Assembly: GCA_001247695.2 (NCBI GenBank)
Contig: LGRX02034684.1
Span: forward strand, 1-64,000
Direction of reading: 5' to 3'
From: Cymbomonas tetramitiformis
Taxonomy: Eukaryota > Chlorophyta > Pyramimonadophyceae > Pyramimonadales > Pyramimonadaceae
Length of the DNA: 64,000 nt
The notes below the pieces were generated by a model. That model did no database searches. It had not been told where the DNA came from and saw only the letters and a program-made list of their open reading frames with translations. This document shows, piece by piece, positions 23,020 through 44,126 of the stretch (position 1 is the first letter of the stretch; each line of letters begins with the position of its first letter). The translations under genes and the position numbers were made by a program.

Positions 23020-23123
23020 AACACCGTGTTGGAAGGAAGTCCCGCGAAGTTTATTGTTATATAACTAATGTTACATGTCTTATATTCATTTATTTTCGCA
23101 GTAAAAACCTAGCCTCCTACAAT

Positions 23124-23519: not shown

Positions 23520-23607
23520 GAAAAAAATACCTGGCTCCCATGCCTACTTGAGACGTGTTGTAGCGAGTTTTAATCATTTATTTTCGCGTTGAAGAACTTC
23601 CTGAGAA

Positions 23608-24039: not shown

Positions 24040-24292
24040 CAAAATGATAATTGTAACAAATATTATAACAAAATAATAGATTGTTCTAAGTAGTGTTTTA
24101 TTCATACCCTGCATACTCCACACAGCTACCATTATACCTACTTCCGTAGCCGTGTGATGGTGGGAAAACGTAATCCACCCACTCCCCGACATCGTTATAG
24201 AACCCATAACACAGATATCACATGCTTTGTGGACCATCAGCGTTCTCATCATTCCATACTCGCAGTGTGGGTATGACCTAGTGCAACTGCTT

Positions 24293-24312
24293 GACAATCG
24301 TATACGATTGTC
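24293..24312. promoter_or_regulatory. Element palindrome, upstream of F-box-like gene
   Basis: Exact copy, 95 bp before the ATG at 24407. AAATATAAGG at about 24357 may act as a TATA box. Confidence 0.7.
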
Positions 24313-24406
24313 ACACGTGAGTCTGAGTGTCGGAGCTAGTGCCCTTCGGCTGTTTCGAAATATAAGGGGTTGAAGTAATAGATAAACGTCATTTTTTTGA
24401 CACATA

Positions 24407-25305
24407 ATGCATCTTCCGAACAACGTCTTGTTAAAAATCTTTCAGGCCATTCCTTACGGACCTGATCATTCCAATGAACCGTTATGTATGTATCTCGGGA
24501 ATCTCTGCCGAATAAGATGTGTCTGCGTACAGTTCAATGATACAATAATCGGGCGTGCGCAACCCGCGCTAAGTGTTGGGCTAGTCCCTTGCGGCAACGC
24601 TATCACCCGCTCTCTTCTTACCGCCTACATTTTTTTATGGAGGACGCCAACCTTCGTCTCTTAATTCACCGAGCCCATGTCTCCCTCCTACGCCTACAAA
24701 GCATGTTTCATCAAAAGTATCCTGAAATGGTGGCTCCTAGCGGAATGTGCATGTCTCCGAAATTAATCGCGGACCACCTCAAAATGTTCGCGCTGGACAC
24801 CATTCTTTTAACCCCACTGCCCGAGTCCCCCCACGAACATGTTTTACATGTGCGATTCAATTCGACTGAAAGATCAGAATCGTCCTCACTTCCCATCTTG
24901 GAATGGCAGATTCGATGTGGCGATGATACTTGCTCCCCATTCGTTTCCATGCTCCATGTGCCCAATGTTCCGTTAGTAAATATCAGTGTGTTGTTCCGTT
25001 ACGATGACCTGTCAAACGCTGGGGTGTGGGCCATCGACAGCTTATCAAACGCGCCGGCAACCGATAGAATTTTGAATCGTTACCCCGATGTGTACATGAC
25101 ATGCCGGCTTGCTGCACGCGTGATACGCATTGTTGATAAATATTTGCGCTCTGGTCGCTCCTATTTCCACCCGGTTCCCCGTGAAGAGAGTTTATTTGCC
25201 AAAGTATGCCAATGGATGACATATACAAGAAAAACACTTCAACAAGATGAACTCGACAGTACAACGGATGGGCTCGGGGGATGGATCATAGCGAACGATT
25301 TATGA
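24407..25305 (+). CDS. F-box-like protein, split by a one-base shift
   Basis: The N-terminus LPNNVLLKIFQAIPYG followed by LGNLCRIRCVCVQFNDTI fits the F-box pattern (LP.evl..If..l....L..l..VC..fn..i), the Skp1-binding part of SCF ubiquitin ligases. This frame (24407-24664) stops soon after a run of seven T (near 24631-24637). The second frame (to 25305) picks up there with MEDANLRLLIHRAHVSLLRL and continues for over 200 residues. A one-base change in the T run would join them. It may be a decayed gene, a sequencing slip or a slippery site. The C-terminal domain is not recognised. F-box assignment is by pattern only. Confidence 0.5.
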
Positions 25306-25457
25306 TCGGGTATGTGCAACATTTTTATTGTGCACGCAGATAGTATTATTACAATTAATTGGATATGTTGTGATACCCTGAATTGTATGTTTTGTGGGTG
25401 TCCTCGGTTCTAGGGTCGGAGCCCGCCAGTGTCAAATTTCCTAGCATTCATGCAGAT

Positions 25458-28322
25458 TTACACGCTATGTACAGGGTCGGGGTGCTCGAGCAACGCTGCC
25501 GCGAGATCGTCTGGCATCTCGAAACAACCTTCTGGCTGATCAGCCTCCATACCCGTGTCTGGCTGCACAGTCTCCATACCTAAACAGGCCGCGACTTCAA
25601 CCAATTCCATTACGTGGTCATCACCCACATTGGCCTTTTGTTTTTCTATCAGCGCTATGTCACCTGCGAGCACCTCGGAATACCGTGCTCTGGCAATTTT
25701 CAACACCTCTGCATCCATGTCGATCGAAAGGACATGCCTTTGCTCCATATACCCCGCCATGGAGGCTGGAGCCGTTCCGCAAGGAAATTCCATAACACAA
25801 GCATCCATGTTGCTGTACAAGCGCATCAGCTCACGGTAAAGACGGATTGGCTTCTGAACGCTGCGAATATTTTGTCCATCTTCTTTCTTCAGGTACTCCT
25901 TAGGTGGCAGCGGTACCTCCTGTTCATAAACAAACAACACACGCGAGTCTGAGTGTCGGACCTAGTGCACCTGCTCGACAATCGTATACGATTGTCACAC
26001 GCGAGTCTGAGTGTCGGACCTAGTGCACCTGCTTGACAATCGTATACGATTGTCACACGTGAGTCTGGGTGTCCGAGCTAGTGCACCTGCTTGACAATCG
26101 TATACGATTGTCACACGCGAGTCTGGGTGTCTGAGCTAGTGCACCTGCTTGACAATTTTGTTTAGCGGAGTTGCATTCATGACAAGATATGAATGCATAC
26201 CAGGATTCTTACCATGATGTTCGTGAACGCGTTCGCAAACTTTCCGACCGTTGTTCGCAGCGGGGCCCACTTCGGTAGTTTATTACTCTTTGAGGGATCT
26301 TCCACCAAGTGCAGCAACACATACGGTTGCAAAACGCTGACCGGACCAGCCGCATTATTACCTATGCGTCCTCCGCCTCGATTCCAGTATTGAACCGTTT
26401 GGTGGCATGTCCATTGCAGCGCCCATCCGGTGGTCGAAGCGCAGAAGGCATCGATGATTGCTTGCTGCCTCGATATCGCGCAGGTTTTTCCATTAATAGT
26501 CACGTTACTGCGGGTAGTCGAGTCCGGTAAGAATAGAATCACAATGCCACCATAATCCATAGTCGACATGCAAATACCACCCATGTATGAGTAGAAGTCT
26601 GTTGAATAGGTATCCCATACCTCCGAAAACAGCCCAAAAGGACCATCCACAAAGATCAGATCCACTCCATAGCGAGCGTGTTGCAATGTTTTTTCATTGC
26701 GCCAATTGACCATGACTTGATTGCTGCGTGCACCCTTATTCCTTTCGGCGAGAGATTCGTTAACCTGTGGAACATTGCTTTCATCAGTCTGCTTTGAAAT
26801 ACATACGCAGCAAATACTTAATACATTGCAATGTAGATATTTGAACAGCTCTAACCTTTATTCCGAAATCCAGCAATCCCGTCAGAAGCTTCGCCTGCAA
26901 CGCGCGATGGCACTTGTTGAAGTCCACCGGCTGCTGGACTCCCTCGGCAGCATGCAGCTCCTTGTGTTCGATTTTCAGCTCCATGAATTCAATCACCGCG
27001 CTCTTCGGCTCCCAATCATGATCGAAAATCTCCGTTTGAATCAGAGCATCCGGCATCCCCTCGCCCCGGCGTGACGCTTTCACACGGAGTTCCAGCCATT
27101 CCCAAACGGCCTGTAATACGCATCAGAATCAGTCTTCGAACTCAGAGACAGAGCAGACTCTAAGTCAAGGTAACGCCAGAGCTTGACAATCGTATACGAT
27201 TGTCACACTTCTCAGTGGATTTACCAACTGACCTTACATCCCCATGGCATGATCATCACAAGTGTATCAACGGGGTCACCTTCGCACTGAACGCGGCGAT
27301 CTCGTTATTGATATCTGGCATTTCTTTGGCTTCCATCATCCGCGACGCTGCCAGTACTGCAGGGGCCATATTAATGTGAGACCCAGCTGCTGCTTGAATC
27401 GCCCATAGCAAATGCAGGCAGTTTTCCTCAAACCCCCTTTTCGTATGGGTGATGCCCAACGTCTGCAGAAACCATGCGGGGTCGTATACGGGTGCCTCAG
27501 TGTAGGCAGGGCCATAAAGCTTCGGAATCGTGAACGTAGCCCCAAAGCGACGGGCATTTCCAATCTCGATGTAGTCACCCGGCAAGGAGTGAATGTAGCA
27601 CAAGATCATACGCGTGGCTGCATAGCAAACATAACTCTCATTTGGACTTGAAATCCTGCAACTTAAAAAAAAATACTTGTGAGGACTAACTCACCAGCGC
27701 AATCCACAAGAGTCTTGTAAGTATGCATGGTATCCTGCGATGGCTTATTCACACTCTTGTCCATAGCCCTTCCTTCCTTGGAATCAACGCGCTTCCATCG
27801 TTTTGCTTTCATCATGCTCTTCGTGACCTCATCGAAGCGTGCAGTGTAGAATTTGTTGGAAGATTGGATTAACATCCACACCAGAAGCTTGGTTTCCAAA
27901 TCAGGCTCTCCGTGGACGTCTTGCATAAGTGTCTGGTGATGATTTTGCACGTACGTCATATGCTGCGAATCACGGTACGTTTCCCCATTAAAGTCATAGG
28001 GTCCCCAAGGGGTGTCAACGTTTAGTTTGAGTATAGTCTAATGCGTATCCTCATCATCATCATAGACGTCCCTGATAGCCTCTGCGTGTTCATACCAATC
28101 TGGGTATTTAGTCCAACCCATCAGCGAGGCAAACTTGGCCTTGGCAGATTCGATGACATCCTTGATGAAACCAAGACGATGACAATACGAGCTGAACTCA
28201 GTGCCAGTCAAAAACTTGCCCTTGCAACTGATCCCATATTTCTGGTAGAACTCCTTCCGTTTGTCCACATCGGCCACTAATACTCCTTCCTTCGCCACAT
28301 TAAGAACAAAGAAATAATACAT
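25458..28322 (-). CDS. DNA methyltransferase A (beta class) of the outer element
   Basis: Spliced gene: exons 28322-27695, 27617-27280, 27110-26856, 26734-26213 and 25919-25458. All joins keep phase (735 codons in total). Predicted S-adenosylmethionine-dependent base methylase. VDLIFVDGPFG (exon 4) is the motif IV (DPPY-type) position, and YRELMRLYS then VMEFPCGTAPASMAGYMEQR (exon 5) is the SAM-binding motif I (DPFxGSGT-type) with the following IDMDAEV. Motif IV before motif I is the beta order of N4-C/N6-A methylases. The sequence around motif I matches methyltransferase B. Both motifs are degenerate (GP for PP, EFPCGTA for DPFCGTG), so activity is uncertain. Codon 95 is an in-frame TAG (28040-28038): a nonsense change, an unusual 30-base intron, or a sign that the start is the ATG at 27959. 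Introns 2 and 4 carry the element palindrome. Confidence 0.65.
25977..26160. repeat. Palindrome array in methyltransferase A intron 4
   Basis: Three exact palindromes (25977-25996, 26035-26054, 26093-26112) and a broken fourth (26151) in a tandem repeat of 58 bp (spacer CACACG(C/T)GAGTCTG(A/G)GTGTC...). All lie inside the intron 26212-25920. Confidence 0.85.
27185..27204. promoter_or_regulatory. Element palindrome in methyltransferase A intron 2
   Basis: Single exact copy inside the intron 27279-27111. Confidence 0.7.
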
Positions 28323-28329
28323 TTTACAC

Positions 28330-28700
28330 CTCTGCCGAGGTTACGGGGTAATTTTTTTGAAAATTCTAATTTGTTTTTGGCAAATCTCTCAAAATGATAC
28401 CTTCGGAGCATACGCTTGTGGGTCGGTTTTGCATGCACGAAATGCCTTTGTATTCATGGATTTTTTTTGGGGGGGGGGTCGGGGGTTGCGGGTAAACTTT
28501 GTGATATTATGTGGCTCGTTCTTATGCGTTTCCTTACAAGCACAAGTTGTGGAATTGGTATGTAGAACACCACTGTATTCATACATTTTTTTTAAAGGCT
28601 TTAATAGTATACGTCAAAGATAATAACTTTTCATCAAACACACAACATGTACACGTGAAACCTTTCAGAGAAATTTTCTAATAACATAGTTACCGTTCGA
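28330..28700. other. Upstream region of methyltransferase A
   Basis: AT-rich, with a G11 run at about 28470 and no ORF I trust. No palindrome is present here, unlike the other outer-element promoters; the inner element begins at its far edge and may have separated one. Confidence 0.4.
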
Positions 28701-28708
28701 TCACTCAG

Positions 28709-28975
28709 TTTGGCAATTTTTGCACCTCAATACTAAGCCAGTGTAACTGTCTCTTCTCGACTCATGCAAAACATTCCTTAGGCGATTCTTACACCTCAAT
28801 ACTAACGCAGTGTAACTGCACCTTCTCGACTCGCGTAAGACTTTCCCATCGGTGTTCTCGATCACTACAAGCTGCTATGAGTAATTACCTCTGAGTGCCA
28901 TTCTCGTGCTGCGGCAAAAACTGTTTCCTACAGTTCTCCATCCTTAGGGACCTTCCCGCTTACACTTGGCATCAT
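28709..28975 (+). repeat. Left inverted repeat of the inner element
   Basis: Two tandem CACCTCAATACTA..CTTCTCGACTC units (about 28721-28840), then GCGGCAAAAACT and ACCTTCCCGCTTACAC. Mirrored at 37588-37845. Confidence 0.8.
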
Positions 28976-28985
28976 TCCACGTTGC

Positions 28986-31900
28986 TCATTCACGGAACGT
29001 TAACGCGCCAGACTTCCGCAATAGCTCGGCAGTCAACTCCACATCGGGGTGCACTTGGATGTCGGTAGGCTTTGGAGCAATCTGAACATAGTTGGGCATC
29101 ACCCGGGTGCAGCAAGCATGTGACACGCAGAACTGGAACTTGCTCTCATGCCATGCACCATTTACCTGCCTTTTCCCCTGCACCACCACCCTTGGTGCGT
29201 CGGCTTCCAGCACAGGTTGCTTCACAGGTTTGCCTTCATCCTTGGTTCGTGTCTTCTGTGTGGCACACCCTTGACCGACGTTCAAGGCGGCAGCACATGA
29301 CGCCTGACGACCCGAACCAGGCACCAGCATCCACTCACCCTGTTTCAGTCCAGTACCACCCGCACCCACCTCCGACGTACGAGGAGTGATCTTCACCTTC
29401 TCAAGTTCCTTCAGAATGTAATCCACTTCCTGGACGGTGAACCCAGCTTGGACGTAAAAGGCGTGCCCCGGAGAGAACTCCGCTTCCTTCAGCACAAAAC
29501 ATATATGCACGCACCAGTGCACCGCGCTGCTACGGCCATGCCTGCCCATCAAGTTCGTCCATGCCTTGCAGCTGCAAGAAACGCGTTGCTTTCGGACTTG
29601 GGACGCCCCTCTCTCTCCGAAGTGGATGTCCCGGGCAGCATCCAGGTACCCGAAGACCACCGTCTGCGAACTGCCTCCCTCCACCGCAACCGTGAAGGCC
29701 CTGTCCAAGACCCCGTTCACCACGTTGAACCTGGTCAGGCGTGGAGTGGGTGCTCCCACTTGCAGCACCTTCAGCTTTGTCTCTCCCAGAAAAAGCTCGG
29801 CTAGCATCTTTGCCTGGCCTTTCGTGGTTTTCAACCGGTAGGCAACCTCCGCCTGAGTGCCAACCGACATCCGTGAGCCCAACCGGTCCGTCGAGTGAAT
29901 GTGTGCCTCCATCAAGTACTCCACCACCAACGTCTTGTCAACCCGGGAAGAAAGCTGCCACGACCGATCGGCGGTGGGGTTGTTGCGATCAGGATCGACT
30001 GACCACTCCCACGCACCGCTTTCCGGAATGCGACGCGCCATCCGAATGCAGGGCTCCGCGTCGGTCAAGTCCACGGTCAAGCGCCTCTTCTTCGGAAACG
30101 AGCGCCGTGTGTCCGGTCGATGGTTGCGATGCTCCGAGGTGTCCGGAGTTTTCTCCAAGTAAGTTTCCGCGAACTCCTGCAGAACATCATAGCTGAAGTG
30201 ACGTCCCCGACGAGCCGCTTGACACTCCTCGCGACGTTCTTGGTAGAGAGCTCCGGTACGCCCATGTTCCCTAGCCTCATGACCACCAGCCAACATGAAT
30301 TCCAACCTCCAAGATTGTTGGATGAAGCTGACAATAGTCACCGAGAAGAACTCGGACATGGTCACGATTTCTCCGAATACCTTTTTGTCACGTCCAATCA
30401 AAGGCTCGGCCAGGTTTGCACCCTTATTCTTGAAGAAGTGCATGCAGCGCTGGGCTTCACGCTCGTAGAAGGCAAGGAACTGGGTCAAGTTGTCTTCCAC
30501 GTCCTTTCGTGACTGTTGCTCGATGAAAGTCACCAGGGCTTTACGACTATCCATGACCTGCTCATTCCCCTATATCGTTAGTGGCGAAGGGTTTAAAAGG
30601 GGGTTGGGGATAGTTTTAGGGCGTTACATTACCTTTCGAGGGGATAAAGCGTGTAGCCAGGTGTAGGTTAAGTTGATGAATTGCTCTTCCTCGAAATCGT
30701 CGGTCAGCCACTTGCAATGCACACCAACTGCCTTGGCCACATGAAGCTCGCAATCCTTCTCGATGCATTCGCCCTCTTCGTTCGTGATCCGAACCCCGCG
30801 ACGTTCCTTCTCAGGAAGATGTTTGTTGAAGTGCAGCCGTGCTCCAGCCCACCCGCCTCCTCCGCTGTCCCGCACCAACATGAACGGACGAAACTCCGGT
30901 TTCCCTCCGTTGAACTCTTTTTGGCACGCGTGCTTGTCCAGGAATTTCCCCGAGACGTCTTCCTGGTGCCTCACGGAAATTACATGGTCACAACCAGCCC
31001 ACATCTTTGCTTCGTCCTCCCCTCTTTCTCCACCGGGTAAAGGGAAGGTAGCCAGTTTCAGTATACCGATGCCGTGGATCACCGTGCACATCTGTCGAAG
31101 ACATTTATTCTCTCTCAGAATAATTTGAGTAACAACGTGTTATTTCGAAACTTGGAGGTGAAAACAAACCATACCTGCTCAACTGCTGAACTCTTCACAC
31201 AACTATGCCCCGCATCGGAGTAACATGCCGCGGTGTTGAAGGGAGGTTTGCCGATGCGCCGGTCCATCAGCAACATGATTTCAGCCGGACACCATGGAAT
31301 GTCCAGAGGAGACATGAAGAACTTGAGGGGATGGCGGTCGAAGTGGAAGACTCTCAAGTTCTTCTTCTTCAACATGCGATCCAGTTCTCCCCACTCGATG
31401 TCCGCATCCTTCTGCATGGGGCGCTTCCCGGTGTTCGCCTTGGCTTTAAGGACTTCCTCTTTGACTGCGCGTTGGTCTTGAACCTCCCTCGCAACCTTGA
31501 AGACATCTTCCAGGGACCCTTCGTCGGACGAAAGCATTTTCTGGAAGGCTTCCATTGTCGCGGCAGCTTTCAGTTTTTCTCCACTAGCGTTCCCAAAAGT
31601 TGGCACGACTTTCGCAATCGCTTCCTGCGTGTCGGGTGAAAGAATTGCTTTTCCTTTTTTCTGCACAGGAGTGCAAGTGTGCACACCCTTGTGCTCGAAA
31701 AATAGCAGACACCCTGGCACGTCCTCCAGGTCGACACGTGCAGCGATGGCACGAGCGGAACAAGCAACGTACTCGGTAGGGGTTTGGCACTTGGGGCAAG
31801 CCGGACCATGCACCTGTAAAGCACGAAGTTTTTTTAGGAAGCTACCCAAGCTATCGGTGGAAACAAAGGTTTGTGTTTCACGAAAACAGAAATATATACC

Positions 31901-32661
31901 TTGTGCCCAAGGAAGTCGTCCTCGTTTTTACCGGTCGTGCGCGACATTCGCTTCACGAAGTGTTTGCCTCCAACTTGAAAGAACACACACTCCTCGTCTT
32001 TACAGACATATTCACCCAGGCAGTGCATTGAACGAGCCAGAACATTCTGTTTACCGTAAACGTCGCTCAGTCCCTTCCAAGTAGTCTTCCCAGCCTCCGA
32101 CCAAGTTCGGTTGTTCACGAAGAAATCTAGTTGAAGTAAAGGTAGCCCTTTCCTCCCTCCAGTGAGCTCGCCTTTGAAGTGCGTACCGAAAAGTTTCGAG
32201 CCGTCAACGTCAAGTGGGACTTTAGAGGTGTGCGAAACTCCAACAGGCCAGATAATTTTCGTAGAAACATTGTTAGTACTAGCTGCGTCGTTTTTGAAAG
32301 GCTCCGAAGTACAACTTGCCTTTGAACTTTCGCCAGTGATTTTAAAGTCTTCAGAATCGGAGTCGCTGTCTGAGTCTGACTCGGACACGAGTTCAGGCAT
32401 GATTTCTTCCTCTGGTTCCGAAAACTCGATAAAAATCTGGTAAAGGTGTTCTGGATTAATTGGCAACAAGTCAACACTTTCGAATATTTCGTCGGTGTTC
32501 ATGTTCATCAAGGTGTAACTTTGTTCGTCAGGAATTTTGAAAACCTTTCGAAGCACCTGCCCAACCGCGTAAGGCTCGCCTTTTGCAAAAGAAACCGGAA
32601 CTTCGGAGATGGTTTGTTCACCATCTTTGCGAAAGACGACGTTAAAAAATTGTTTTGACAT
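28986..32661 (-). CDS. SWIM/WRKY-GCM1 zinc-finger protein of the inner element
   Basis: Four exons, all phase 0: 32661-31900, 31813-31175, 31091-30633 and 30557-28986; 1143 residues, intact. Residues 1-80 look like a beta-grasp (ubiquitin/PB1-like) domain and are followed by an acidic linker (SESDSDSDSDSEDF). About 216-310 form a WRKY-GCM1-like zinc finger (CLGEYVCKDEECVFF, CPKCQTPTEYV, GVHTCTP). TVDLTDAE (about 780) resembles a SUMO-interacting motif. About 948-973 is a SWIM finger (CSCKAW...HWCVHICF, C-x-C-xn-C-x-H). WRKY-GCM1 plus SWIM is the known accessory set of MULE-type transposases, so this may be the transposase, but I cannot point to a DDE triad in the middle third. The layout matches the shorter protein at 41142-42824. 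Confidence 0.75.
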
Positions 32662-33073
32662 CTTTTATCTACATATTTCCAGTTGCTAAACATGAAAACA
32701 GAAAGAATTAAGACAAAACAGCGACTCTAAGTCTTTATAGCGCACACAAAAATAATACACCACCAGCGTAAGTTTGGAAAAAAATTCATAAGTATAAAAT
32801 ATGTCAGTAAAAATATTTATTTGAAAAATAATAGCTAAAAAAAACCGAACTTAAAAAAAAAAGAATATATAAAGAAATTCAATTTCTTTATTTTAAAAAA
32901 AAATATTGTCTCACAGAACCTCGCGCCGTCACGCTCAGTAGCGTTGCGAAGAAGAGTTGCGTCGTAAGTTTTCTTCACTTAACTCTAAAAGCCTGAAAGT
33001 CTTTTGACTGAATATTTTCACGCTTTAACTTACTTTACGTTCTCAGTAAAAAAACTTCACCGTCTCCGAAAAC
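32662..33073. promoter_or_regulatory. Divergent promoter region of the inner element
   Basis: 412 bp between two head-to-head starts, very AT-rich (A and T runs at 32830-32920, AATATATAAAG near 32862). It should drive both inner-element genes. No palindrome of either family is present. Confidence 0.55.
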
Positions 33074-36000
33074 ATGCCTCCAAAGAACAAAAAGTCAGCA
33101 GCGGCTCCTCAACGAAGTAGCGTGCGCCACAATTACCAAGAGATCTTCGACTCGCATTTTGTCGAACTGAAACCAGAGGCAACTCTGGAAGAGTGTTGGT
33201 TCGGGGACAACCCACGAGGCGACGAGAACGACGGAGAGGCTGTTAAAGCATCTTACGCGCAGCACGGCAAGCTCCGGGATGAACCAGCGATGCTCTGGGC
33301 GGTGCTGCCCTCAAAGCGGCCGCCCCACTACGAGCACGTGCCCAAGCGGTAAGATTCCAAAGCTCTACTAACTGTGCTGTACTGTTTTACCTGATTAGCT
33401 TTCTTCTTTGCGCATTTCTCTGGCAAAACAAGACATCTCAGAGAGTTTTGACATTAATGTCAAAAGCTTTCTTCTTCGCGCATTTCTCTGGCAAAACATG
33501 ACATCTCAGAGAGTTTTGACATTAATGTCAAAAGCTTTCTTCTTCGCGCATTTCTCAGGCAAAACAAGACAACTCAGAGAGTTTTAACATTAATGTCAAA
33601 ACTTTTCTTCTTCGCGCATTTCTCAAGCAAAACAAGACATCTCAGAGAGTTTTGACATTAATGTCAAAAGCTTTCTTCTTTGCGCATTTCTCAGGTAAAA
33701 CAAGACATCTCAGAGAGTTTTGACATTAATGTCAAAACTCTCTGAGATGTCTTGTTTTGCTAGAGAACTGCGCAAAGAAGTAAGCTTTTAACATTAATGT
33801 TAAAACTCTCTGAGTTGTCTTGTTTTGCCTGAGAAATGCGCGAAGAAGAAAGCTTTTGACATTAATGTCAAAACTCTCTGAGATGTCTTGTTTTACCTGA
33901 GAAATGCGCAAAGAAGAAAGCTTTTGACATTAATGTCAAAACTCTCTGAGTTGTCTTGTTTTGCTTGAGAAATGCGCGAAGAAGAAAGCTTTTGACATTA
34001 ATGTCAAAACTCTTTAAGCGGTCATGTTTTGCCTGAGAAATTCACAAAGAAGAAAGCTTTTGACATTAATGTTAAAACGACTCGAGCTGACGAGTTTTGT
34101 TTGCAGGTCTGAAAGCGTTGAGTCCTCACAGAGTCTCAACTTTTTAGTAGACCCTTCTTCATCTTCAGAAGACGAGACAGTTCAACGCCCGATCCCACGT
34201 GGCTGGTACAACTGTGCGGACACGGCGACAGCAAAAAAGCGACGCAAAAACAAGGCTGATGCCAAACGCGATCTGAAGAAACGTAGGGAGAGTTGTCCTC
34301 TGTGGATGCTAGACTCGCAGTGGTAAATGGATGTTTAGCTCAAACATTAGAAAGTGTAAAAATATATAACATTTTATAGAATATTTTATACTGAAACCTT
34401 GCCTTGAAAAGCTGTTGTTTTCTTTTGAAAAAAGGTTTTGTGCCTTTCAGTTACAAGTACGTGTGTATTGACGGGCACGGACGACACGCATTCTACGCGC
34501 ATGCCTTTGCGCACGGCTGCCAGCTTAGGCAGAAAGATGTGGAACCGGGTAATGGCATGTTCCTCACCCACAACGCCAACATCTTGGATGAGACTCTCAC
34601 CCTTGATGAGATCACCACCTTGGCAGTCGCCAAGATCTCGGTTAACGACTCCGGGTCCAAGACCCGGACGTTTTTTCAAGACTACTCGATGTTCAAGTGA
34701 GATCCTTTTTACTTGAATTCTAAACCCTATTTTAAAATATTGCGAGTTTTGAGTTTGTTCGCATATTTTTCAGATGGAACATCTTGGCTTTTCAAAAAAG
34801 CACAAAGAAGAAAGTTAAATCAACGGACCTCTTGGCTCAGTACCAAAGTGATGAGTTCGATCAACGCTTTTTTACGAGGCTTCTCAAGATCGTGGAGTAC
34901 CTCCAGGACAAGCTCAAGATCGAGGAGATCATCCGCCAGTGCAGCAACGCTCTTGGCAAAGGTTGTTGCTTGAACTTTGACTCCTTGTACAGCAACAAGG
35001 AGTTGGAGAGGCTCAACGCGGTCCAGCAAGTGCAAGTCTTCGAGGAGTGCTTGAAGAGCCTGCCTTTCGTTGAAAACACCCAGGGTGGAGGTGTTAGAAA
35101 GATCACTGACGCGAAGAAGTTGAAGGCCGTGGAGACAAGTCCGAAACCGACACGTGTGATTACATCTCCACGGTCCTTCACGGATTGCTGCACGGCGTTC
35201 TGGATGAGGTCCCTCACAATCGATCACATCAATTCCATGGGCGGGAAGGTAATGGACTCTGAGAAAGCGGCCCAATGGATGGAAAGCCTGAATCAGGGAA
35301 AGCTCGACCACGTTCTCTTGGGAGAGGTACGTAGAGCTCTGAAAACTTGTTCTTCTTTTATTTCACTCTTGAAAGATGTTTCTTAAAAAAACACCCCACA
35401 CTTCTTTCAGGCTGACAATCTGAAGGCGCCATCAGCGGTGAATGCTGGCCGTCTGGCTGGAAAGGAGGACCTTTACATGAAGAAGGCCGTGAAGAGGTAC
35501 ATCGATCACTGCCGATGGAAGGAGGTCAGTGAGGTGTCGACAAAAGCCGAAGACGATGATGAGGTTGAAGTTGAGGTTGATGATGCGGGGGATGAAAGTG
35601 GTGAAGAGATGGAGGTGGATGACTTTGCCCTTTCTGAAGAAGAGGATGACGAACGGGACGCCCGACTCCAAAGGAAGCAGGAGCGTAAGAAAGTCGAGGA
35701 GTTCGAGGCCCGCGCGGAAAAACTTACCAGGGTGGAGAAGCGGAATGAAGAGTTCAAAGAAGAACGGTGAGTGCAACTGGGTGGAGTATTTCATGGTTAC
35801 CCCTCACACATCTTGCTCACCTGTTTAAGGTCTCGCAGAAACAAGATGGACGAGTTAGCCGTTGAACTGGAAAAGAAGGAAGCCGAAGACCTGGAGGTGG
35901 AACAGAAGCTCCAAGCTAAGTTGGCGGAGAAGGCCGCAGAGTTACGTGCGGCGAAGTTGCAGAAGAAGGCCGAGGCGGAAGAGGTAGAGAAGGAAGAGGA

Positions 36001-37573
36001 GGAAGAGGTGCCGGAGCCACTCGATCTGTCTAACGTGTCCGTGGACAAGGTTTTGGCCACGGGCGGGCCCTTGCGCAACGGTACGGAGCCTGTTTTTGAT
36101 GAGACACATGCTGAGGAACTCATGAGTTTCATCGCCTTGCGGTGGACTTCTCTTGAATATGAGAAGGATTACCCGGTGTACGTTGAAGTCAAGACAACAA
36201 CTGACCTGAAGAAAGAGGCCAAAGGGGCGGGAAGAAAGAAGAAGCAGGCGGCGGAGCCGAAGGTTATGTTTCGCCTGCGCAAGCACAAGATGGCGGGAGC
36301 TGTGCAAGACCCGATCGTATTGACATCCCGTGCCATCATTGGTGCAGGTAAGCTCTTGTTCATGTGTGGCTTAATTGTTTGTTGTTGGCCAGACATTGCG
36401 GGGGCTGAAAAGAGTTGAGTTCATTGCAGGAATTCCATTGTTGACTTTGGTCCTGGGGACGTACGAGGAGATTGCAAAGGACTTGCATGCCAAGTTGATG
36501 GAGGGAGTCGGGATCGCGGCGGTCATCACGGATGTCCCATGGGGTGACGAGAAGGACACTGGGTACAACACGGAGGTTGAATGGGGTGCAGCATTGCAGG
36601 CAATCAGCACTGTATTTGATCTGAACGCGGCCCTGTCAGAGGACAGCAAGAAGCAGGACCTGGGCAAGGCGGATGGCGAGGCCATCGTGTTCGCAATGGG
36701 AGACATCACGGCATTGAACTGCATAAACCACGAGGCCTCAAAGAACCGTCTGAAGGTACACGGGATGCTTCGCTGTTAGTTTGAGGGTGTGCTTGAAGCC
36801 ACGGGGACTGAAGTGGTATGTTTGCACAGGTATACAAGAACATGCCGGGGTTCGTGCTGTTGGATGGTGTACGCCAAAGTGAGGTACGGGGGAACACACC
36901 CACGGCTTCAGGGCACCTGTACACCACTCTGGCACGTTCCCTGAACAAGCCGAAGCTGGATTACAAGAAGGCGGTGCTGGCAAAGTTCGGCCCGGACTTG
37001 GAGGGTATAGCCGGTGTGCAGACCTTGACTAACTTTTTTTGCGGGAATGTCTTGGGCCCGTTGTCCTTGTTCGAGTACCAATCTTTGGAGGCGGTCCTTG
37101 AGAAGAACGTGAAGGAGTTCGGGGCGAAGGAGAACTGGACTTCCAAAAAGACCTCGGACATGGTGAAATATCTGTGTGAGATGGCAATGGAGCATTACCA
37201 GGAGTACGCGGCGCCGTTCCAGGCTTTGCACTCGACTGGTACATTCAAGCATAACTGCCAGATCACGGGATGTGCGGCTTTGAAGAGCAAGTGTAGCGAG
37301 GACGGCAAGACTTTGGTGGTGGGACAGAAGAGCGTCGAGCTTGGGGAGTATCTGGTGGAGAGGTACACGTCCTCTGCGGGTCAGGTGGTGATGGACCCTT
37401 TCATGGGCTCGGGCAGTGGGGGGATTGCGGCCCTACGAAAGGGCCGCTGCTTCCTAGGCTACGAACAGAAGCAGACCAACTATTTCTCGGCGGTTTTCCA
37501 TCTCAGTTGCGCCCTGCAGAAGATGATTGAGGGCGATGAAGACTTTGTTCTTTTCAAGTATGAGATTCCTTAG
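33074..37573 (+). CDS. DNA methyltransferase B (beta class) of the inner element
   Basis: Eight exons: 33074-33348, 34107-34322, 34451-34696, 34774-35326, 35411-35766, 35830-36347, 36430-36755 and 36830-37573. Every join is GT-AG and in phase, giving 1077 residues. Predicted SAM-dependent DNA base methylase. IAAVITDVPWGDEKD (exon 7) is motif IV; QKSVELGEYLVERYT followed by VVMDPFMGSGSGGIAALRKG and RCFLGYEQ (exon 8) is a textbook motif I block of N4-C/N6-A methylases in beta order. The N-terminal two thirds are element-specific: a basic stretch (KKRRKNKADAKRDLKKRR, exon 2), a long acidic then coiled-coil region in exons 5-6. Motif IV has VPW where PPW/PPY is usual. Intron 1 (33349-34106) contains a large repeat hairpin. 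Ends 15 bp before the right inverted repeat. Confidence 0.85.
33400..34090. repeat. Giant imperfect hairpin of palindromic repeats in intron 1
   Basis: About five units of about 68 bp (GCTTTCTTCTTCGCGCATTT...AAAACAAGACATCTCAGAG, then TTTTGACATTAATGTCAAAA) run forward to about 33727. The same units run inverted from about 33735, giving arms of about 330 bp around a centre near 33730. Each unit boundary is itself the palindrome TTGACATTAATGTCAA (some copies with AACATTAATGTT). It lies wholly within the first intron of methyltransferase B, so a transcript could fold into long double-stranded RNA. Confidence 0.9.
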
Positions 37574-37587
37574 GCCCTCCATAGATA

Positions 37588-37845
37588 TTTGTCATTGTGT
37601 AAGCGGGAAGGTCCCAAAGGATGAAGAGCTGCAGAGTGTAGTTTTTGCCGCGGCACAAGTGTGACAATGGCCGAAAGATGAAGAAGTAGACTGATAATTA
37701 CAGAAGTTCGAAAGGAAGGTCTTACGCGAGTCGAGAAGGGGCGGTACCACCGTGCTAGTATTGAGGTGTAAGAATAGCCTACGGAAAGTTTTGCGCGAGT
37801 CGAGAAGGTGTAGCTTTGCTGCGTTAGTATTGAGGTGCAAAAATT
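37588..37845 (-). repeat. Right inverted repeat of the inner element
   Basis: Inverted counterpart of 28709-28975, beginning about 15 bp after the methyltransferase B stop codon. Confidence 0.8.
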
Positions 37846-37869
37846 GCCAACTGGACAAATCTGTAAAGT

Positions 37870-38077
37870 ATAAGTATGTTGTTAAACGGCCCATTTAGAA
37901 CCCTGTATTTACATAGAAACCTATATGCGGTGCGCGTATCGTAGACGGAGAGTAAAATACGGAGCAAATAAGAGCAACCGCGTGCCGTTAACTAAATTAC
38001 CTCGTAAACACGGACTCTAAATACTAAGAGTTTCACCTCGTTGTATTCATGGGTCCCTCGTAGTGGTGACGAAATTT
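37870..38077. other. Outer-element flank between inner element and DGQHR gene
   Basis: No gene; the 3' flank of the minus-strand gene ending at 38078. Confidence 0.4.
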
Positions 38078-40434
38078 TTACAAATATTGTTTTGGCAAAC
38101 TCGGGTCCTCGGGACCCCGTAACCTCGGCACTTGCGTTTGGTGGAAATAATATCGTACATCAAACCCTAAGGCTGTTAGCGAGGTGCTTATAGCCTCTAG
38201 GGTAAGAACAGGCTGCAGTTCTTTCGGATAGTTCTTCAACTCCAGAGCTTCCTTCCGCCATTCCTCTCCCAGTTTTGGATCCAGTAACCGCAAAATCTGC
38301 AAGCAAGACACGTTGGACACATGTAAGGGGGGCGACACGATTGTCACGCGTGGGTGAGAACTGAAGCTAGCGCCAAAGCTTGACAATCGTATACGATTGT
38401 CACGCGTGGGTGAGAACTGAAGCTAGCGCCAAAGCTTGGCAATCGTATACGATTGTCACGCGTGGGTGAGAACTGAAGCTAGCGCCAAAGCTTGACAATC
38501 GTATACGATTGTCAAGCGTGAGTCAGGGGCGAAGCTAGCGCCAAAGCTTGACAATCGTATACGATTGTCACGCGTGGGTGAGAACTGAAGCTTGACAATC
38601 GTATACGATTGTCACGCGTGGGTGAGGACACATGAGAGAGCGCGGAAGTTTCATACCTTTTGCGCATCCCGCTCGCGCGATTGGAGGAGGGCAACTTTTG
38701 CCGAACGATCCTGAATCCTGGAAATCTCGTTCGAGTAGGCCGCCGCGGTCGTATCGCTCAGATTGTTCCGATACCAAGCGTTACTCTTGGCACTAGCTTG
38801 CCTTACCGGGAATTGTGTAAAATGCGCCAGTTGTTCTTCCGAGGCGTCGGCAATATTCAACAGCAAAATCCATTTATCGTGTTCGTGAGAGTCAACAAGA
38901 CTTTCTGTTTGGTCGGTGTTCGTCAGTGTCCCGATAAGGCTCTGCGCAAACCGAAACTTGTAAAAATCTCATTCATGTACACACGGTATTTTATTGAAAC
39001 GATGAAACAAACGATATCATACAAGGATTGCTTACCAAAACACAAAGAGGTGTTTCTTTCTTCAGAATTATAATCGTTGTGGCCAACCCCTCCAGAGAGG
39101 ACCTATTATTGGTCTCGGTACCGTTCCAGAATGCTTTACGTTTCCTTGCGTCCAGGACAAGGTCAAGCCAGGCGTCATAGCGATGCTGGCCATCCACCAC
39201 GACAAGCTGCATTCGCATGAACTTCTTCTTCACCCACCTCTTGTAGTCGTCAGGATCATTATCGAATAGGCTGAGATAGTCTTTTTCCAGATTGCTCACC
39301 ATTTTATCGAAGTTGATTAATTCCTCAGGAGCCACCGCATCCGCCGCTGCAAGCAACCGAAATGAACTCAGGTCTGACAATCGTATACGATTGTCAAGCT
39401 TTGTAGGAAAGTCCCGAACCCTTGCATAATGCTAGTGCTGACAAGCAATGCCTCACCGGGATAAAACTTGGACATGAGCATTTGCCTATACTCTTCGTCC
39501 GTGTAATAGTGTCCAGTCCACCACGCGATGACATGTGATTTGTCCACCTCCCATCGCTCCATGATGACCTTCTTCTGCTTCTCTATTCCCTCTTGTGAAG
39601 TCGCGCGGGTAAACGAAAGTTGGTTTGCGTCCCCCTCAACATCAGCAGGATGTAACAGCAAGCCAAGAGGGGCAACTAATGGAAGCTTTTTGTCTTCTCG
39701 AGAATTATGCTGGGGACGATAAGTCCATTCTGAGATCACTTTTTTGATATTCAGCGGTCCTGGGAATACGTAGTCTTGCCTGTTGTCGCACCAGTGGTCC
39801 CAGATATCGCTGCCTTACCCTTCGTGTCACGAGCACGCTTTCGCGGTGGTGCACTCCCCGAAGCCTCGGGTGCAGGAGCTGACGCTGCCTCTGGCGCTGC
39901 CTCTGGCGCAGCATCTGCATCAGCTTTTCTCTTACCTAGCATTCTTTTAAGAGTGTTAGCAGTTTTAGTTGCGTTCTGATTCTTCAGTAATGCAACAGCT
40001 GTATCAACTATCTCCCCACCATCTCCACCTTCCACAAGGGCCAGAATTCCTGTCTCGAGGTTTTGCTTCTCCTTCTGTTTATTTGTAGCGGCATACTCGA
40101 GCATTAGCGCAACGACTTGCTCAGCTGGTTGCTGAGCTGGTTGCTGAGCTGGTTGCTGAGCTGGTTTCGGCGCACCAACTTTAATAGTCAGCCTTTGCGA
40201 TTTAGCTGTAGCTTGAGGATCACTTGCGACTGGAGTGGCATCTCCACTTGCGACTGGAGTGGCATCTCCTGCGGTACCTGGAGCAACACCAGCGGCGGGT
40301 AACTCATTTGAACCACCTTCACCGGATGCCATAGATCCGCTCTGAGAGGCCTGTGCACCTCCGGAGGCCATACGCTGTAAATCTCTAATTGTGCCTCCGA
40401 ATTTCTTTCGAGCGGTTTGTTTTGTACGAGCCAT
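38078..40434 (-). CDS. Histone H3-tail-mimic / DGQHR (ParB-like) protein
   Basis: Exons 40434-39936, 39774-39457, 39346-39036, 38941-38657 and 38296-38078; phases agree, 543 residues. The product begins MARTKQTARKKFGG; residues 2-10 equal histone H3 residues 1-9 (ARTKQTARK, including Lys4 and Lys9), and GG aligns with H3 G12-G13. No histone fold follows. Next comes a low-complexity Ala/Pro/Gly region (three AQQP units). Exon 3 has QLVVVDGQHRYDAWLDLVLD, the DGQHR signature of DndB/ParB-like domains. A TATAAATG box (40473-40466) 32 bp above the ATG supports this start; an in-frame ATG at 40566 would add 44 residues. If the intron 39935-39775 is kept, a 227-residue form results that ends with nuclear-signal-like PPRKRARDTKGK. 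Introns 2 and 4 and the promoter carry the element palindrome. H3 match is certain, DGQHR assignment probable. Confidence 0.75.
38334..38613. repeat. Palindrome array in the last intron of the DGQHR gene
   Basis: Exact palindromes at 38382, 38494, 38550 and 38594, a one-base variant at 38438 and a half site at about 38334. They form a 56-bp tandem repeat (spacer CACGCGTGGGTGAGAACTGA then AGCTAGCGCCAAAGCTT). All lie inside the intron 38656-38297. Confidence 0.9.
39376..39395. promoter_or_regulatory. Element palindrome in DGQHR gene intron 2
   Basis: Single exact copy within the intron 39456-39347. Confidence 0.7.
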
Positions 40435-40465
40435 GCAATAATGAAATAAATGACACCCCGACATG

Positions 40466-40473
40466 CATTTATA
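40466..40473 (-). promoter_or_regulatory. TATA box of the H3-tail/DGQHR gene
   Basis: TATAAATG on the minus strand, 32 bp from the ATG at 40434. This implies a very short leader and favours that ATG, which exposes the histone-like residues at the N-terminus once Met is removed. Confidence 0.55.
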
Positions 40474-40640
40474 GGGCTGCAGGTACGCACCTCCCTCACG
40501 CCCGGCAGCCACAGCCTGTGCCTTAGCAGTGGGCTTTCTGACTCTTGATAATCTCCCTGTAGACATCTGTAAAATTATGAATTATTTTAATATTTTCCTA
40601 GTATATATAGATAAAAAATCTATAAATATATCTACTACAA

Positions 40641-41010
40641 TACTCACGTGTGACAATCGTATACGATTGTCAAGCTTCGACCGTACGGTTAATCATATTC
40701 AGATGTGCACGAGTAGTGACAAACTCTTCGCGAATATCCAGGCAGGGTTATACGACATGCAATAGGATACACGATCTCGGCGCTAAGTTCGGCTCTCTCT
40801 CACGTGTGACAATCGTATACGATTGTCAAGCTTCGACCGTACGGTTAATCATATTCAGATGTGCACGAGTAGTGACAAACTCTTCGCGAATATCCAGGCA
40901 GGGTTATACGACATGGAATAGGATACACGATCTCGGCGCTAAGTTCGGCTCTCTCTCACGTGTGACAATCGTATACGATTGTCAAGCTGAAACCGTATGG
41001 TTAATCATAT
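40641..41010. repeat. 156-bp tandem repeat with three palindromes, promoter of the DGQHR gene
   Basis: Units begin CACGTGTGACAATCG and continue AAGCTTCGACCGTACGGTTA; exact palindromes sit at 40652, 40808 and 40964, exactly 156 bp apart. The first two units are almost identical and the third diverges after the palindrome. The block lies 85-420 bp upstream of the possible starts of the 40434 gene and downstream (3') of nothing else, since the SWIM gene ends at 41142. Confidence 0.85.
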
Positions 41011-41141
41011 TCGAATGTGGACGAGAGTGCTAATACATGCAATGGTATACAAAATGTTTTGAATAACGTATATGAAAATGCATACACTGTAAAATATATA
41101 AGATGCCATCACAGATTTACGTTTGTATTCTAGCTAAGCAA

Positions 41142-42824
41142 CTAGAGATCGAAGTTGTCCGGAATTCCAGGATAATACGACAGTATTTTGCGAACTTCTG
41201 AGGATAGCAGAGATGGCTCGTGAAGGTATCCCACACTCGTAATGATCGGAATTTCGAATATCTCGGAGTACAGCCAAAGGAAATGCTTGCATGGAGCAGG
41301 TCGGGTCCTCGCCATTTCTCGAAAACACGGACACGAACAACGGTATTCTCGTCCAAACTCCAAGAGGTATTCACGGCCATCGGAATCAGGGTGACAAACT
41401 CGGAAGTTATAGACGGTTGCACCACCAGGAACACATTTCCGGATTTGAGTCAGTGCAAGGTTATCGGTCTTAACCATGCTGTGGAGCGCGGTATAGAAAT
41501 TCGCTATCTTCTTCGTCAAGAAACCCTTGCCACTCGCTTTCACCTTAACACCGTTGCGAAGTCTCTCCTCCACGTCCATCTCCGAATTCTCCGATCTCAC
41601 CGCGAAAGATTGCAGTAGGCCCTTACCGTGCTTGGCAGCCCATTGGGAAACGGCTTGCATGCCCTCATCCTGTCGACGACCTCGCACGAGATTCTGGTCC
41701 ACTGCCTTATCAATCACTTTCATTTTCCTCGCGATGTCTGGTAGCTGGCTAGGGTCAAAAGAAGAATCTTTTGGAAAGACGATTTCCGAGAGTAAAGTCC
41801 TTTTCACGTCGCAAACGTTTCGCACTCCACCGGTATTTAGAACCTCCGCAGCCCTAGCCTTAGCCGTTTTCATCTCATTCACGCTGGGGTTGTCGGTGGA
41901 CAATACCACATGGTTGTGCGCATCGGCGCCGGTATACAGGACGAGGATATTCCCATCGGAGTCAGGTTCGGTGGTTACCAAAAACGGACAACTGCCAGAA
42001 TGAAGCGGCTCGGCGTTGCAATGGGCACAAGCCAGATTGCGGTTTTTAAAGGTACCGGTGAAGTCGGAATGGTTCTGGTCACCCGTTTGACGATATACGA
42101 TACATGCAACGTTCTTACAGGTTAAAGCCCCACCACATCGCGTAGTTCTACTGAGTCGGCCTCTGATACGTTTTTTGTCGGACGAGCGCAGCCAGGTCTG
42201 CGGATCGTATTTTAAGAAATCTCTCCAAGGAGACAAAACTCCGGCACGTGGCTTGTAAACTACCCCCGGAAGAAGAGGCACTGGTAGTTCGTCGACAAGC
42301 TCTTCAGGCTGAACTGGCGCTACGTCTTGGGACAAATCAACGTGCTGCGAAAAATCAATCGGAATAGTTGGTCCGTTGTAGGCTGCATATTCCGATTTGA
42401 CCTTGTGCTTGAGCTTTGGTTCTAGTCCCGCGCTGGAGGATTTCGTAGATTCATACGAGTCTTTTGGAGGTGGGGGCGATTCGGTTAAGTCACAAACAAC
42501 ATGTTCTTGCTTTATTTCAGGGCGAGGCGGAGAAGCTGATGCTTGGGAAGATTCGTGGGTGGCTGTTTCGAGATTCGCACAACCGGTCTTCACGTCACTC
42601 GTAGATCCGGGGGTTGAGCTGACACCACCGATCACAAGTACGACAGCTCCGTCAGGGAACACGGTACCGAGCTCGACAGTTTGCACATTTTCTGTGCTGC
42701 GCATGTGAAGAAGCATCGGGGTATCGGTAAGGGTTGGAAACAAGGCCTGTAGTAACTGAAGAGAGATTGGCACCGCATGCGGGACATCCAAAGCATGGTT
42801 ACCGTATCGTAGGGAAGTCGGCAT
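41142..42824 (-). CDS. SWIM/WRKY-GCM1 zinc-finger protein of the outer element
   Basis: Single-exon 560-residue protein. Residues 1-67 are beta-grasp-like. 100-150 carry two SUMO-acceptor-like motifs (IKQE, VKSE) and VVCDLTES, a SUMO-interacting-like motif. 230-305 form a WRKY-GCM1-type finger (CGGALTCKNVACIVY, CAHCNAEPLHSGSC, AHNHVV). Near the C-terminus YRCSCPCFREMARTRPAPCK with the following H is a SWIM finger (C-x-C-xn-C-x-H). Domain order equals that of the 1143-residue inner-element protein but the middle region is much shorter, too short for a usual DDE domain. Likely a DNA-binding protein of the element (transposase, or regulator binding the palindrome). TATATAG at about 42875-42881 and an exact palindrome at 42946-42965 lie upstream. 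Confidence 0.75.
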   Translation of the reverse strand: MPTSLRYGNHALDVPHAVPISLQLLQALFPTLTDTPMLLHMRSTENVQTVELGTVFPDGAVVLVIGGVSSTPGSTSDVKTGCANLETATHESSQASASPPRPEIKQEHVVCDLTESPPPPKDSYESTKSSSAGLEPKLKHKVKSEYAAYNGPTIPIDFSQHVDLSQDVAPVQPEELVDELPVPLLPGVVYKPRAGVLSPWRDFLKYDPQTWLRSSDKKRIRGRLSRTTRCGGALTCKNVACIVYRQTGDQNHSDFTGTFKNRNLACAHCNAEPLHSGSCPFLVTTEPDSDGNILVLYTGADAHNHVVLSTDNPSVNEMKTAKARAAEVLNTGGVRNVCDVKRTLLSEIVFPKDSSFDPSQLPDIARKMKVIDKAVDQNLVRGRRQDEGMQAVSQWAAKHGKGLLQSFAVRSENSEMDVEERLRNGVKVKASGKGFLTKKIANFYTALHSMVKTDNLALTQIRKCVPGGATVYNFRVCHPDSDGREYLLEFGREYRCSCPCFREMARTRPAPCKHFLWLYSEIFEIPIITSVGYLHEPSLLSSEVRKILSYYPGIPDNFDL

Positions 42825-42945
42825 GGTATCCTAAGGTACCATGAGAAATGAAATATTTTATGAAAGGAATACTCTATATAGACATGGGTTCAGTGTAAGT
42901 TTTGAAGAACGAAGCATTGCAGTTAATCGCTTGGGAAACAGTTCT

Positions 42946-42965
42946 GACAATCGTATACGATTGTC
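42946..42965. promoter_or_regulatory. Element palindrome, upstream of the SWIM gene
   Basis: Exact copy, 122 bp above the ATG at 42824 and just inside the right inverted repeat. Confidence 0.7.
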
Positions 42966-42995
42966 AGAACCGTCTGGAATATTAATGTTATAAGA

Positions 42996-43265
42996 CCTTA
43001 AGTATGAAGAAAAAAAATAAAATTTTCTTAAGTATGTGAAAACGCAGGCGTCGACGCGGACCGACGCGTTACCCTCCTTAAGTATGGGCTTAAGTATGGG
43101 AGCCCTAATTTTCAAAATCTTAGAATGTTAAGAATGTTTGGTCCGTCCGTCCGTCCGTCCAAAAATTGGTCCGTCCAGTTGGACGGAATCTTGGACGGAC
43201 GAGTTTTTGGACGGACGGACGAGTTTTTGGACGGACGGACGAGTTTTTGGACGCGTCACTGGACC
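42996..43265 (-). repeat. Right terminal inverted repeat of the outer element
   Basis: Inverted copy of 21860-22095. It has extra GGACGGACGAGTTTTT iterations near the tip, which makes it about 30 bp longer. Confidence 0.9.
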
Positions 43266-43271
43266 AATATC

Positions 43272-44126
43272 ACCTCTCTCCGTGACGACGCTCTAGACGT
43301 GCCACCACCGCCGGCACCGCCCTCCGCTCCGCAGTCGGTGGTGTCCGACGAGGGGATGTACCCCGTCAGCGCGCTACACGCGCACGAGCCACACGCGACC
43401 TTCCAGGACAGGTTCGCGTTCAACTTGGACATCGCGGGACCGGAGCCGACCCTTGCAATGCACCACATGGGCCCCGTCGCGCCCGTGGACTCCGTCTCCG
43501 TGACGACAGGCGGCTCCGGTGGTGACGGCGAGTGTCTTCCGCCACGGCGACAGGCTTTGGGATGCGGCAGGCCGCCGATGGGTTTCGGGTTCTCTGCCCT
43601 CACATCTCTCGCAGTCTGCCTACTGTTTGTTGTTTGTGCAGCTGCCGCGCCTTCACGTGATCGCTCCGCGCCAACATCTTCAGCAACATGGCGCATCGGC
43701 GACGAGGTCGGTGGTGCTGGTGTGCTAACGCCCACAGCCATCCCGCCGGACCTCTACTGGCGGCCGGAGGGCTGGTACCACACCTGGTACCGGACTACGT
43801 ACGGGTACGGGTGGACGTGGCTCCCGGGCCCCCTGCAGACACCTGAGGCAGCTCCGATCGTTACCGGGCCGCCCTCGCCGGGTGGTGCTCCACCGTCACC
43901 GGACTACGAGCCACCCGCCTGGGGCGGTGGGACCGGGGATGAGCTTTCTTCCTCAAATCGGCACCGGACCGGACTGGTTGCACCCGGTGTAACTGCCTGC
44001 AACGACATCGGCACATCTTCAATTCCCTCAATTTGCTCTACGCATGATTTGACAAACAGTGGTACCAGCTCTCCTGGGCACTGTAACAGTGACACCGGCT
44101 CTCCCGGGCACTTTCGACGTGGCTAG
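43272..44126 (+). pseudogene. Gag-like protein of TR-GAG 2, C-terminal part (separated)
   Basis: Continuation of the gag at 20331-21859 after the 21.4-kb insertion. It has acidic and proline-rich sequence, then LGCGRPPMGFGF and a hydrophobic segment LTSLAVCLLFVVCAAAAP, matching the YGCG..P plus hydrophobic tail of the other two gag proteins. The left part reads the target site AATATC from the third codon position and the right part from the first, so simple removal of the insert with one target copy would not restore a single frame; the copy was probably already frameshifted. Confidence 0.7.

Follow-up and report, generated by a model that had tools for sequence, protein, structure and literature searches.

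Histone mimicry is known mainly from viruses and host proteins. Short histone-like sequences occur on non-histone proteins such as SNAG-domain factors, influenza NS1 and G9a; these mimics are shorter or less exact than the tail described below and, to our knowledge, none of them is encoded by a transposon. A search of the literature by titles and abstract openings, covering few subscription papers, found no transposon-encoded H3 tail.

Transposon proteins that combine ParB-like and methyltransferase regions are already in print, and the closest published one is from Ectocarpus, where the 21.5-kb transposon Sola1-1_Ec32 encodes an accessory protein with ParB-like and N4/N6 DNA methyltransferase parts; relatives of that protein are reported there from green and red algae (PMC12477816). 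The locus described here resembles it in being a large DNA transposon whose accessory gene appears to fuse a prokaryote-like DNA-binding region with an N6/N4-type methyltransferase-like region. Sola1-1_Ec32 belongs, however, to another transposon superfamily, its accessory gene runs opposite to the transposase whereas ours lies on the same strand, and no histone tail is mentioned for it in the portions of the report available (PMC12477816); the ParB assignment of our protein, in turn, is by motif only.

The anti-silencing VANC proteins of Arabidopsis bind family-specific motifs which stand in tandem repeats of the noncoding DNA of VANDAL elements, themselves Mutator-like (PMC5735166, PMC10398659). 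The protein predicted here is likewise an accessory protein of a provisionally Mutator-like element with a private short motif in introns and intergenic parts; it too changes fast, and related families carry different motifs. This is a likeness by description: the available parts of the VANC reports mention no histone tail or methyltransferase, and binding and demethylation have been demonstrated for VANC, whereas the tail protein is known from sequence alone (PMC5735166, PMC10398659). In the engineered system CHARM, an H3 tail-Dnmt3l fusion recruits DNMT3A and, as far as the available portion of that report goes, seems to need a free N-terminus (PMC11875203). In CHARM, and by prediction at our locus, a free N-terminal H3 tail sits on a DNA-targeted protein tied to DNA methylation, but CHARM is man-made, mammalian, concerned with 5mC and keeps S10-T11, while the tail protein is natural, has K-F at these positions and has a methyltransferase-like region of another type (PMC11875203). 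The bdelloid rotifer N4CMT joins a prokaryote-like N6_N4 methyltransferase to a chromatin module in a eukaryote, as the tail protein may do; it is a host gene whose chromodomain reads H3, whereas the tail protein itself looks like H3 (PMC8885841).

The histone H3 tail

The locus lies in a 64,000-nucleotide stretch of Cymbomonas tetramitiformis DNA (contig LGRX02034684.1, positions 1 to 64,000 of the forward strand), referred to below as the window. Two features define the start of the gene:

40405..40434, minus strand: H3-tail mimic, Met plus ARTKQTARK, 10 codons (codon reading and genome pattern search)
40393..40404, minus strand: K10-F11-G12-G13, with H3 S10-T11 replaced and GG kept (41 distinct intact copies)

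The minus-strand ATG at 40434 opens MARTKQTARKKFGG, and the window codons (MARTKQTARKKFGGTIRDLQRMASGG) give residues 2-10 identical to histone H3 residues 1-9 (9/9), followed by K-F in place of H3 S10-T11 and by the retained G12-G13. The original prediction had claimed precisely such a mimic, encoded by a transposon and with no histone fold after it. The codons bear out the first claim; the second is supported by an element with inverted repeats and 9-bp target duplications that was delimited around the gene; and in agreement with the third, the 271-aa ORF containing the tail (39751-40566) matched no family in a Pfam scan with E up to 1. Pfam detected no histone family in exon 1, and when the N-terminal 71 residues were searched against the PDB, histone H3 scored no better than E=0.21. 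At the level of sequence this is a histone mimic, a histone-like stretch on a non-histone protein.

The transposon

Two complete-looking copies of the element, C898 and C1841, were aligned, and their alignment ends together after 16.5 kb. The inverted ends of C898 align across 356 columns at 91% (inverted repeats of ~350 bp); a 9-bp duplication without mismatches (CACCGCGAA) borders C1841 on both sides, and C898 has no clear one. The window copy and its transposase were placed as follows:

21847..43278, no strand assigned: whole element copy (9-bp duplication TCCGTGACG at 21838-21846 and 43279-43287)
41142..42824, minus strand: remnant of the transposase, lacking its middle part, with a SWIM-like CxC..CxH at the C-terminus (SWIM E=0.13, below cut-off)

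The tail gene thus sits in a DNA transposon beside the provisionally called transposase, on the same strand. A stretch in the transposase, CTFHWGQNL, resembles what we take to be the transposase C..H motif. Pfam at E up to 1 found no family in two unspliced C898 transposase ORFs, which makes the Mutator-like assignment provisional. Mutator-like elements have 8-11 bp target duplications, long inverted ends and a MULE-domain transposase often accompanied by SWIM (PMC6446971). A duplication of that size and long terminal inverted repeats are both present here, and on its ends and SWIM-like transposase end we provisionally classify the element as a large Mutator-like DNA transposon. It is present in hundreds of copies, with 150 scored of 375 and of 422 candidates in genome searches.

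The window copy itself is inserted in the gag ORF of an LTR retrotransposon and is damaged, by a frame shift in the tail gene, by the loss of 2.2 kb of the transposase region at 41600/41601 and by a 9.8-kb second transposon in exon 4. In another copy, an F-box-like gene was seen on the opposite strand near the right end of the element (L040:6509-6805, minus strand; Pfam F-box-like E=9.1e-4, below cut-off).

The predicted protein

In C898 the tail ATG opens a modelled 1309-residue protein of 8 exons, with all introns GT-AG and in phase; the model was built from genomic DNA only, with splice sites picked by hand to keep the frame. An earlier splice model with 20 stops was replaced by this one, which uses a later exon 5 acceptor. 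Comparison with other copies gave the window equivalents:

39457..40434, minus strand: exon 1 equivalent, with tail, low-complexity linker and core start
39036..39346, minus strand: exon 2 equivalent, with VVVDGQHRYDAW motif (ParB/DGQHR-like by motif only)
38657..38941, minus strand: exon 3 equivalent
38144..38296, minus strand: exon 4 equivalent, first part, as far as the nested element
28320..38143, no strand assigned: second transposon, nested in exon 4 of the tail gene (duplication GAAATAATA, copy comparison)
27695..28319, minus strand: exon 4 equivalent, second part, past the nested insertion
27280..27617, minus strand: exon 5 equivalent
26856..27110, minus strand: exon 6 equivalent
26213..26764, minus strand: exon 7 equivalent, with VDLIFVDGPFG (methyltransferase motif IV-like)
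25473..25919, minus strand: exon 8 equivalent (methyltransferase motif I-like in C898), with 4 gap positions against C898

An open reading frame runs from the tail through all of exon 1 in 43 of 52 tail-bearing loci. The window copy is among the nine broken ones: relative to other copies its frame shifts between 39751 and 39814, so that the ORF from the tail ATG is 227 aa long. A 59-nt intron at 39759-39817 was rejected, since other copies read through there in one frame.

In the modelled protein, the H3 tail is followed by a variable low-complexity linker, a DGQHR motif and an N6/N4 DNA methyltransferase-like region. The linker has basic runs, KRK and PKRAR by eye, which could be nuclear signals. 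The exon 2 motif VVVDGQHRYDAW is, we assume, of the kind found in ParB/DndB-like proteins; VVVDGQHR was recognised by eye, the Pfam scan gave DUF1015 at E=0.17 and DUF688 at E=0.12, and no ParB domain was matched by Pfam in the modelled protein, so that we describe the region as possibly ParB-like. For the C-terminal 333 residues, PHROG returned a methyltransferase family at E=4.2e-5; the Pfam match to N6_N4_Mtase, at E=0.07, stays under its cut-off. VDGPFG and FPCGTA stand at what we take to be the DPPY and FxGxG places and are degenerate with respect to those motifs. The C-terminal region is accordingly termed a predicted N6/N4 DNA methyltransferase-like region, resembling such enzymes with degenerate motifs.

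A search of 5.8 billion proteins at E up to 0.001 found no match for the tail ORF or for model residues 225-1290, which is weak evidence of absence because only ~8000 word-sharing candidates were scored and the tail ORF returned no histone. Viral contigs searched with one core piece gave no match.

The tail in the host genome

A degenerate 30-base pattern for M plus ARTKQTARK had 293 matches in the 852-Mb source genome, and the reversed-pattern control had 0. By codon class, ~31 of these belong to histone H3 genes or variants and ~262 to the transposon (the latter by subtraction, with part of them read). The Lys4 codon was AAG in 13 and AAA in 87 of the 100 matches listed, and 86 of those 87 were exactly the window tail DNA. 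The AAG-class pattern, which additionally allowed AGR arginines, had 31 matches; among the 30 read, 28 were histone H3, H3 variants or broken H3, and the other two had an H3 tail without a histone fold behind it. Both matches of the AAA plus CAG class were host genes, one an H3 gene and one an H3-like gene with introns. About 55 of the ~262 element-class loci were read, and every one continues as the transposon.

The two AAG-class exceptions (L059 and L062; G000 C9958 and C12101, position 1501) are a separate type of gene start that likewise encodes the H3 tail exactly, MARTKQTARKSTGGKATRIVTS... They have their own codon choice and, downstream in a different frame, a von Willebrand A-like stretch (ALDISGSM), and are 97% alike across 2 kb.

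In DNA sequence, the element tail is identical to none of the 32 host starts, H3 or H3-like, that were read. The closest two differ by 4 nt and the others by 5 (10 starts), 6 (15), 7 (3) or 8 (2), all of these differences being synonymous by construction of the search pattern. BLAST similarity between the element and host H3 starts was limited to the tail, ending at codon 10 with none upstream. The host H3 itself we take, by eye, to be of the plant, alga or stramenopile kind. The sequence CGGAGGC after K-F is by eye also present in many host H3 genes, which hints that the tail descends from an H3 gene in which S10-T11 were replaced.

Conservation of the tail

In order to follow the tail among copies, 50 were picked for their match to a part of exon 1 outside the tail, and not for the tail itself (the 30 best matches, including the window copy, and 20 further matches). 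The exact tail was encoded in 46 of the 50, and in 46 of the 47 that have the region, which is the conservation of ARTKQTARK in related elements that the original prediction looked to for support; of the remaining copies, L086 has a 1-bp deletion in the tail and L013, L079 and L085 are without the region. Among 41 distinct intact copies, close kin that had been filtered for a tail with the right residues, 0 of 10 tail codons were variable against 98 of 314 other exon-1 codons (hypergeometric 0.022). Residue 10 in this set was K in 40 and E in 1, and residue 11 was F in 33 and I in 8.

The sampled copies are closely related, however, so that conservation alone is weak evidence. The tail DNA is also nearly invariant, with one synonymous change in one of 50 tail-bearing copies, and together with the close kinship this means that recent spread explains part of the conservation.

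Outside the tail the gene has changed rapidly between subfamilies. In linker and core, pN/pS was ~4 between diverged subfamilies (for the rest of exon 1 in L043 against L017, changes at 62/713 nonsynonymous and 5/226 synonymous sites, p=2.7e-4) and about 0.3 to 2 among closer copies, dropping to 0.3-1 where the relationship is close. Between the window copy and C898 the exons, at 0.907-0.979 identity, are not better kept than the introns, at 0.935-1.000, and exon-1 mismatches per codon position (21, 15 and 3) are not confined to third positions. This comparison with C898 speaks against strong constraint on the gene as a whole.

Mutator-like elements pick up gene pieces, and it might be argued that one of them once caught the first codons of an H3 gene and has copied them along without function. 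The near-invariance of the tail DNA among copies is what recent spread predicts, the shared CGGAGGC fits a capture, and an H3 donor from outside the source genome could account for the codon differences. Yet the tail lies at least 4 (synonymous) nt from all 32 host starts with no similarity upstream, it sits precisely where a long open gene begins, and neighbouring codons have often changed at the amino-acid level. We consider a functionless fragment unlikely.

Insertion sites

An H3 tail could also act as a tether, binding H3 readers in active chromatin so that insertion or maintenance is steered there instead of silencing being opposed. H3K4 readers do act in active chromatin, but the tail is on the accessory protein and not on the transposase. 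Of three duplications read, two lie in other transposons (the LTR gag ORF in the window and exon 4), which does not favour targeting to genes, a sample that is far too small to carry weight. Tethering seems to us a rather improbable use of the tail.

Start of the protein

Two features upstream of the tail bear on where the protein begins:

40462..40473, minus strand: TATAAATGCATG, candidate TATA box that would serve the tail ATG (33/33 copies)
40435..40566, minus strand: upstream ORF MSTGRLSRVRKPTAKAQAVAAGREGG..., in frame with the tail here (copy comparison)

TATAAATGCATG begins 39 nt upstream of the A of the tail ATG in all 33 copies with enough upstream sequence. A TATA box had been predicted 32 bp upstream; the candidate lies at the larger distance, and its position would give a leader of roughly 5-15 nt. 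The same prediction made the tail Met the first residue. Of 50 tail-bearing copies, picked for a tail with the right residues, 36 have an in-frame stop among the 33 codons that precede the tail ATG, and such stops exclude an internal tail in most copies unless splicing intervenes. The window copy is an exception, being among the 14 without such a stop: its upstream ATG at 40566, which the original prediction passed over, is in frame, has its own TATA-like stretch and would make the tail internal. The tail is the probable N-terminus of the protein in most copies, and less surely so in the window copy.

Across copies the upstream ORF reads MSTGR(L/F)(S/T)RVRKPTAKAQAVAAGREGG and is maintained with 3-nt indels, which raises an alternative: the protein may start at this upstream Met, or the MSTGR ORF may be an alternative first exon that replaces the tail. 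Of 33 copies, 32 contain the ORF in frame and 31 its TATA-like stretch; insertions of 3 nt are tolerated in it, and a splice from GGAG|GTGCGT to TTCGGAG|GC would preserve the frame, with MSTGR...GREG replacing the tail. Against this, the ORF terminates just before the tail in 25 of 32 copies (stops in 36 of 50 by the wider count), the splice acceptor is poor and without a pyrimidine tract, and the candidate TATA box of the tail ATG is constant in all 33 copies. A tail that is not N-terminal is thus improbable.

Palindromes and a possible role in chromatin

The C898 element has 42 copies of a 22-bp palindrome, TGACAATCGTATACGATTGTCA, of which 39 are perfect and 3 differ at one position, all of them outside the modelled exons of the H3-tail gene. 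Many of these copies were multiplied by tandem duplication and are not independent. As described for the targets of VANC, the noncoding DNA of this element has arrays of a private motif. In the source genome the palindrome is perfect in 7606 places, against 0 for the reversed control, with family membership checked at most for the places listed and two elements. The window has 17 copies overall, 14 of them perfect, including one cluster:

38381..38614, no strand assigned: TGACAATCGTATACGATTGTCA five times, once with a mismatch, within the intron that follows exon 3

A methyltransferase-like region and a private palindrome in the same element fit a chromatin role, and the H3 tail joined to such a C-terminal end suggests that the element steers or fools the chromatin machinery of its host. 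Our preferred reading, to which we assign a probability of about 0.55, is that a Mutator-like transposon encodes a self-targeting chromatin effector which shows an H3 tail to host readers or writers, probably against silencing. As read from the sequence, the protein would present exact H3 1-9 ahead of its fast-changing linker, DGQHR region and methyltransferase-like region, and the element bears dozens of one palindrome outside the modelled exons. The protein may bind this palindrome, perhaps by means of its DGQHR region in the way that ParB binds parS, and many molecules would then gather on the element. Removal of Met would leave a free H3-like N-terminus, which might be read or modified by host proteins acting on H3K4 and H3K9, and without S10-T11 it would escape phosphorylation at these positions. 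The silencing machinery could in this way be occupied or redirected locally, as VANC achieves for VANDAL, to which the C-terminal part might or might not add DNA methylation. On this chain of steps, we infer that the most likely use of the tail is to weaken silencing of the element. The original prediction, in which the tail recruits or sequesters chromatin readers or writers for escape from silencing or targeting of insertion, is as a whole supported in part.

We suggest, more tentatively, that this may be the first transposon-encoded histone mimic, in which a free, phosphorylation-proof tail that retains K4 and K9 would act, on palindrome arrays, as a decoy nucleosome surface capturing the host H3K4/H3K9 machinery on the DNA of the element itself. 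That the tail instead recruits silencing or DNA methylation to the element itself, as an N-terminal H3 tail in the engineered CHARM can recruit and activate DNMT3A (PMC11875203), is very unlikely, since a high copy number and a rapidly changing protein point to conflict and not to self-limitation.

Should host proteins read or modify the tail, this would be a natural instance of histone mimicry by a mobile element, tied to sequence-specific self-targeting, and a natural counterpart of engineered H3-tail editors. The peptide raises the questions of binding by PHD, ADD, chromodomain and WD40 proteins, of the role of K4 versus K9 and of the effect of losing S10-T11.

The nested transposon and other palindromes

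The nested element carries a clear N6_N4 methyltransferase gene (Pfam E=4.8e-10). Assignment of this methyltransferase (36815-37573) to the tail element was rejected, as comparison with C898 and C1841 puts it in the nested transposon. The apparent start of this gene, MPPKNKKSAAAPQRSS, has no H3 tail. The methyltransferase has 17 relatives, the named ones being from Cymbomonas tetramitiformis (57% over 93%; 87% over 24%), and none of the nine relatives read has an H3 tail. The nested element has a 20-bp palindrome of its own, TTTTGACATTAATGTCAAAA, distinct from TGACAATCGTATACGATTGTCA, in 7 exact copies and 1 variant; the array lies at 33446-34009, and a perfect 62-bp palindrome at 33697-33758 forms its centre. 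Elsewhere in the window, another perfect 20-bp palindrome, GGACATGTATATACATGTCC, was observed at 190-209 and 2029-2048.
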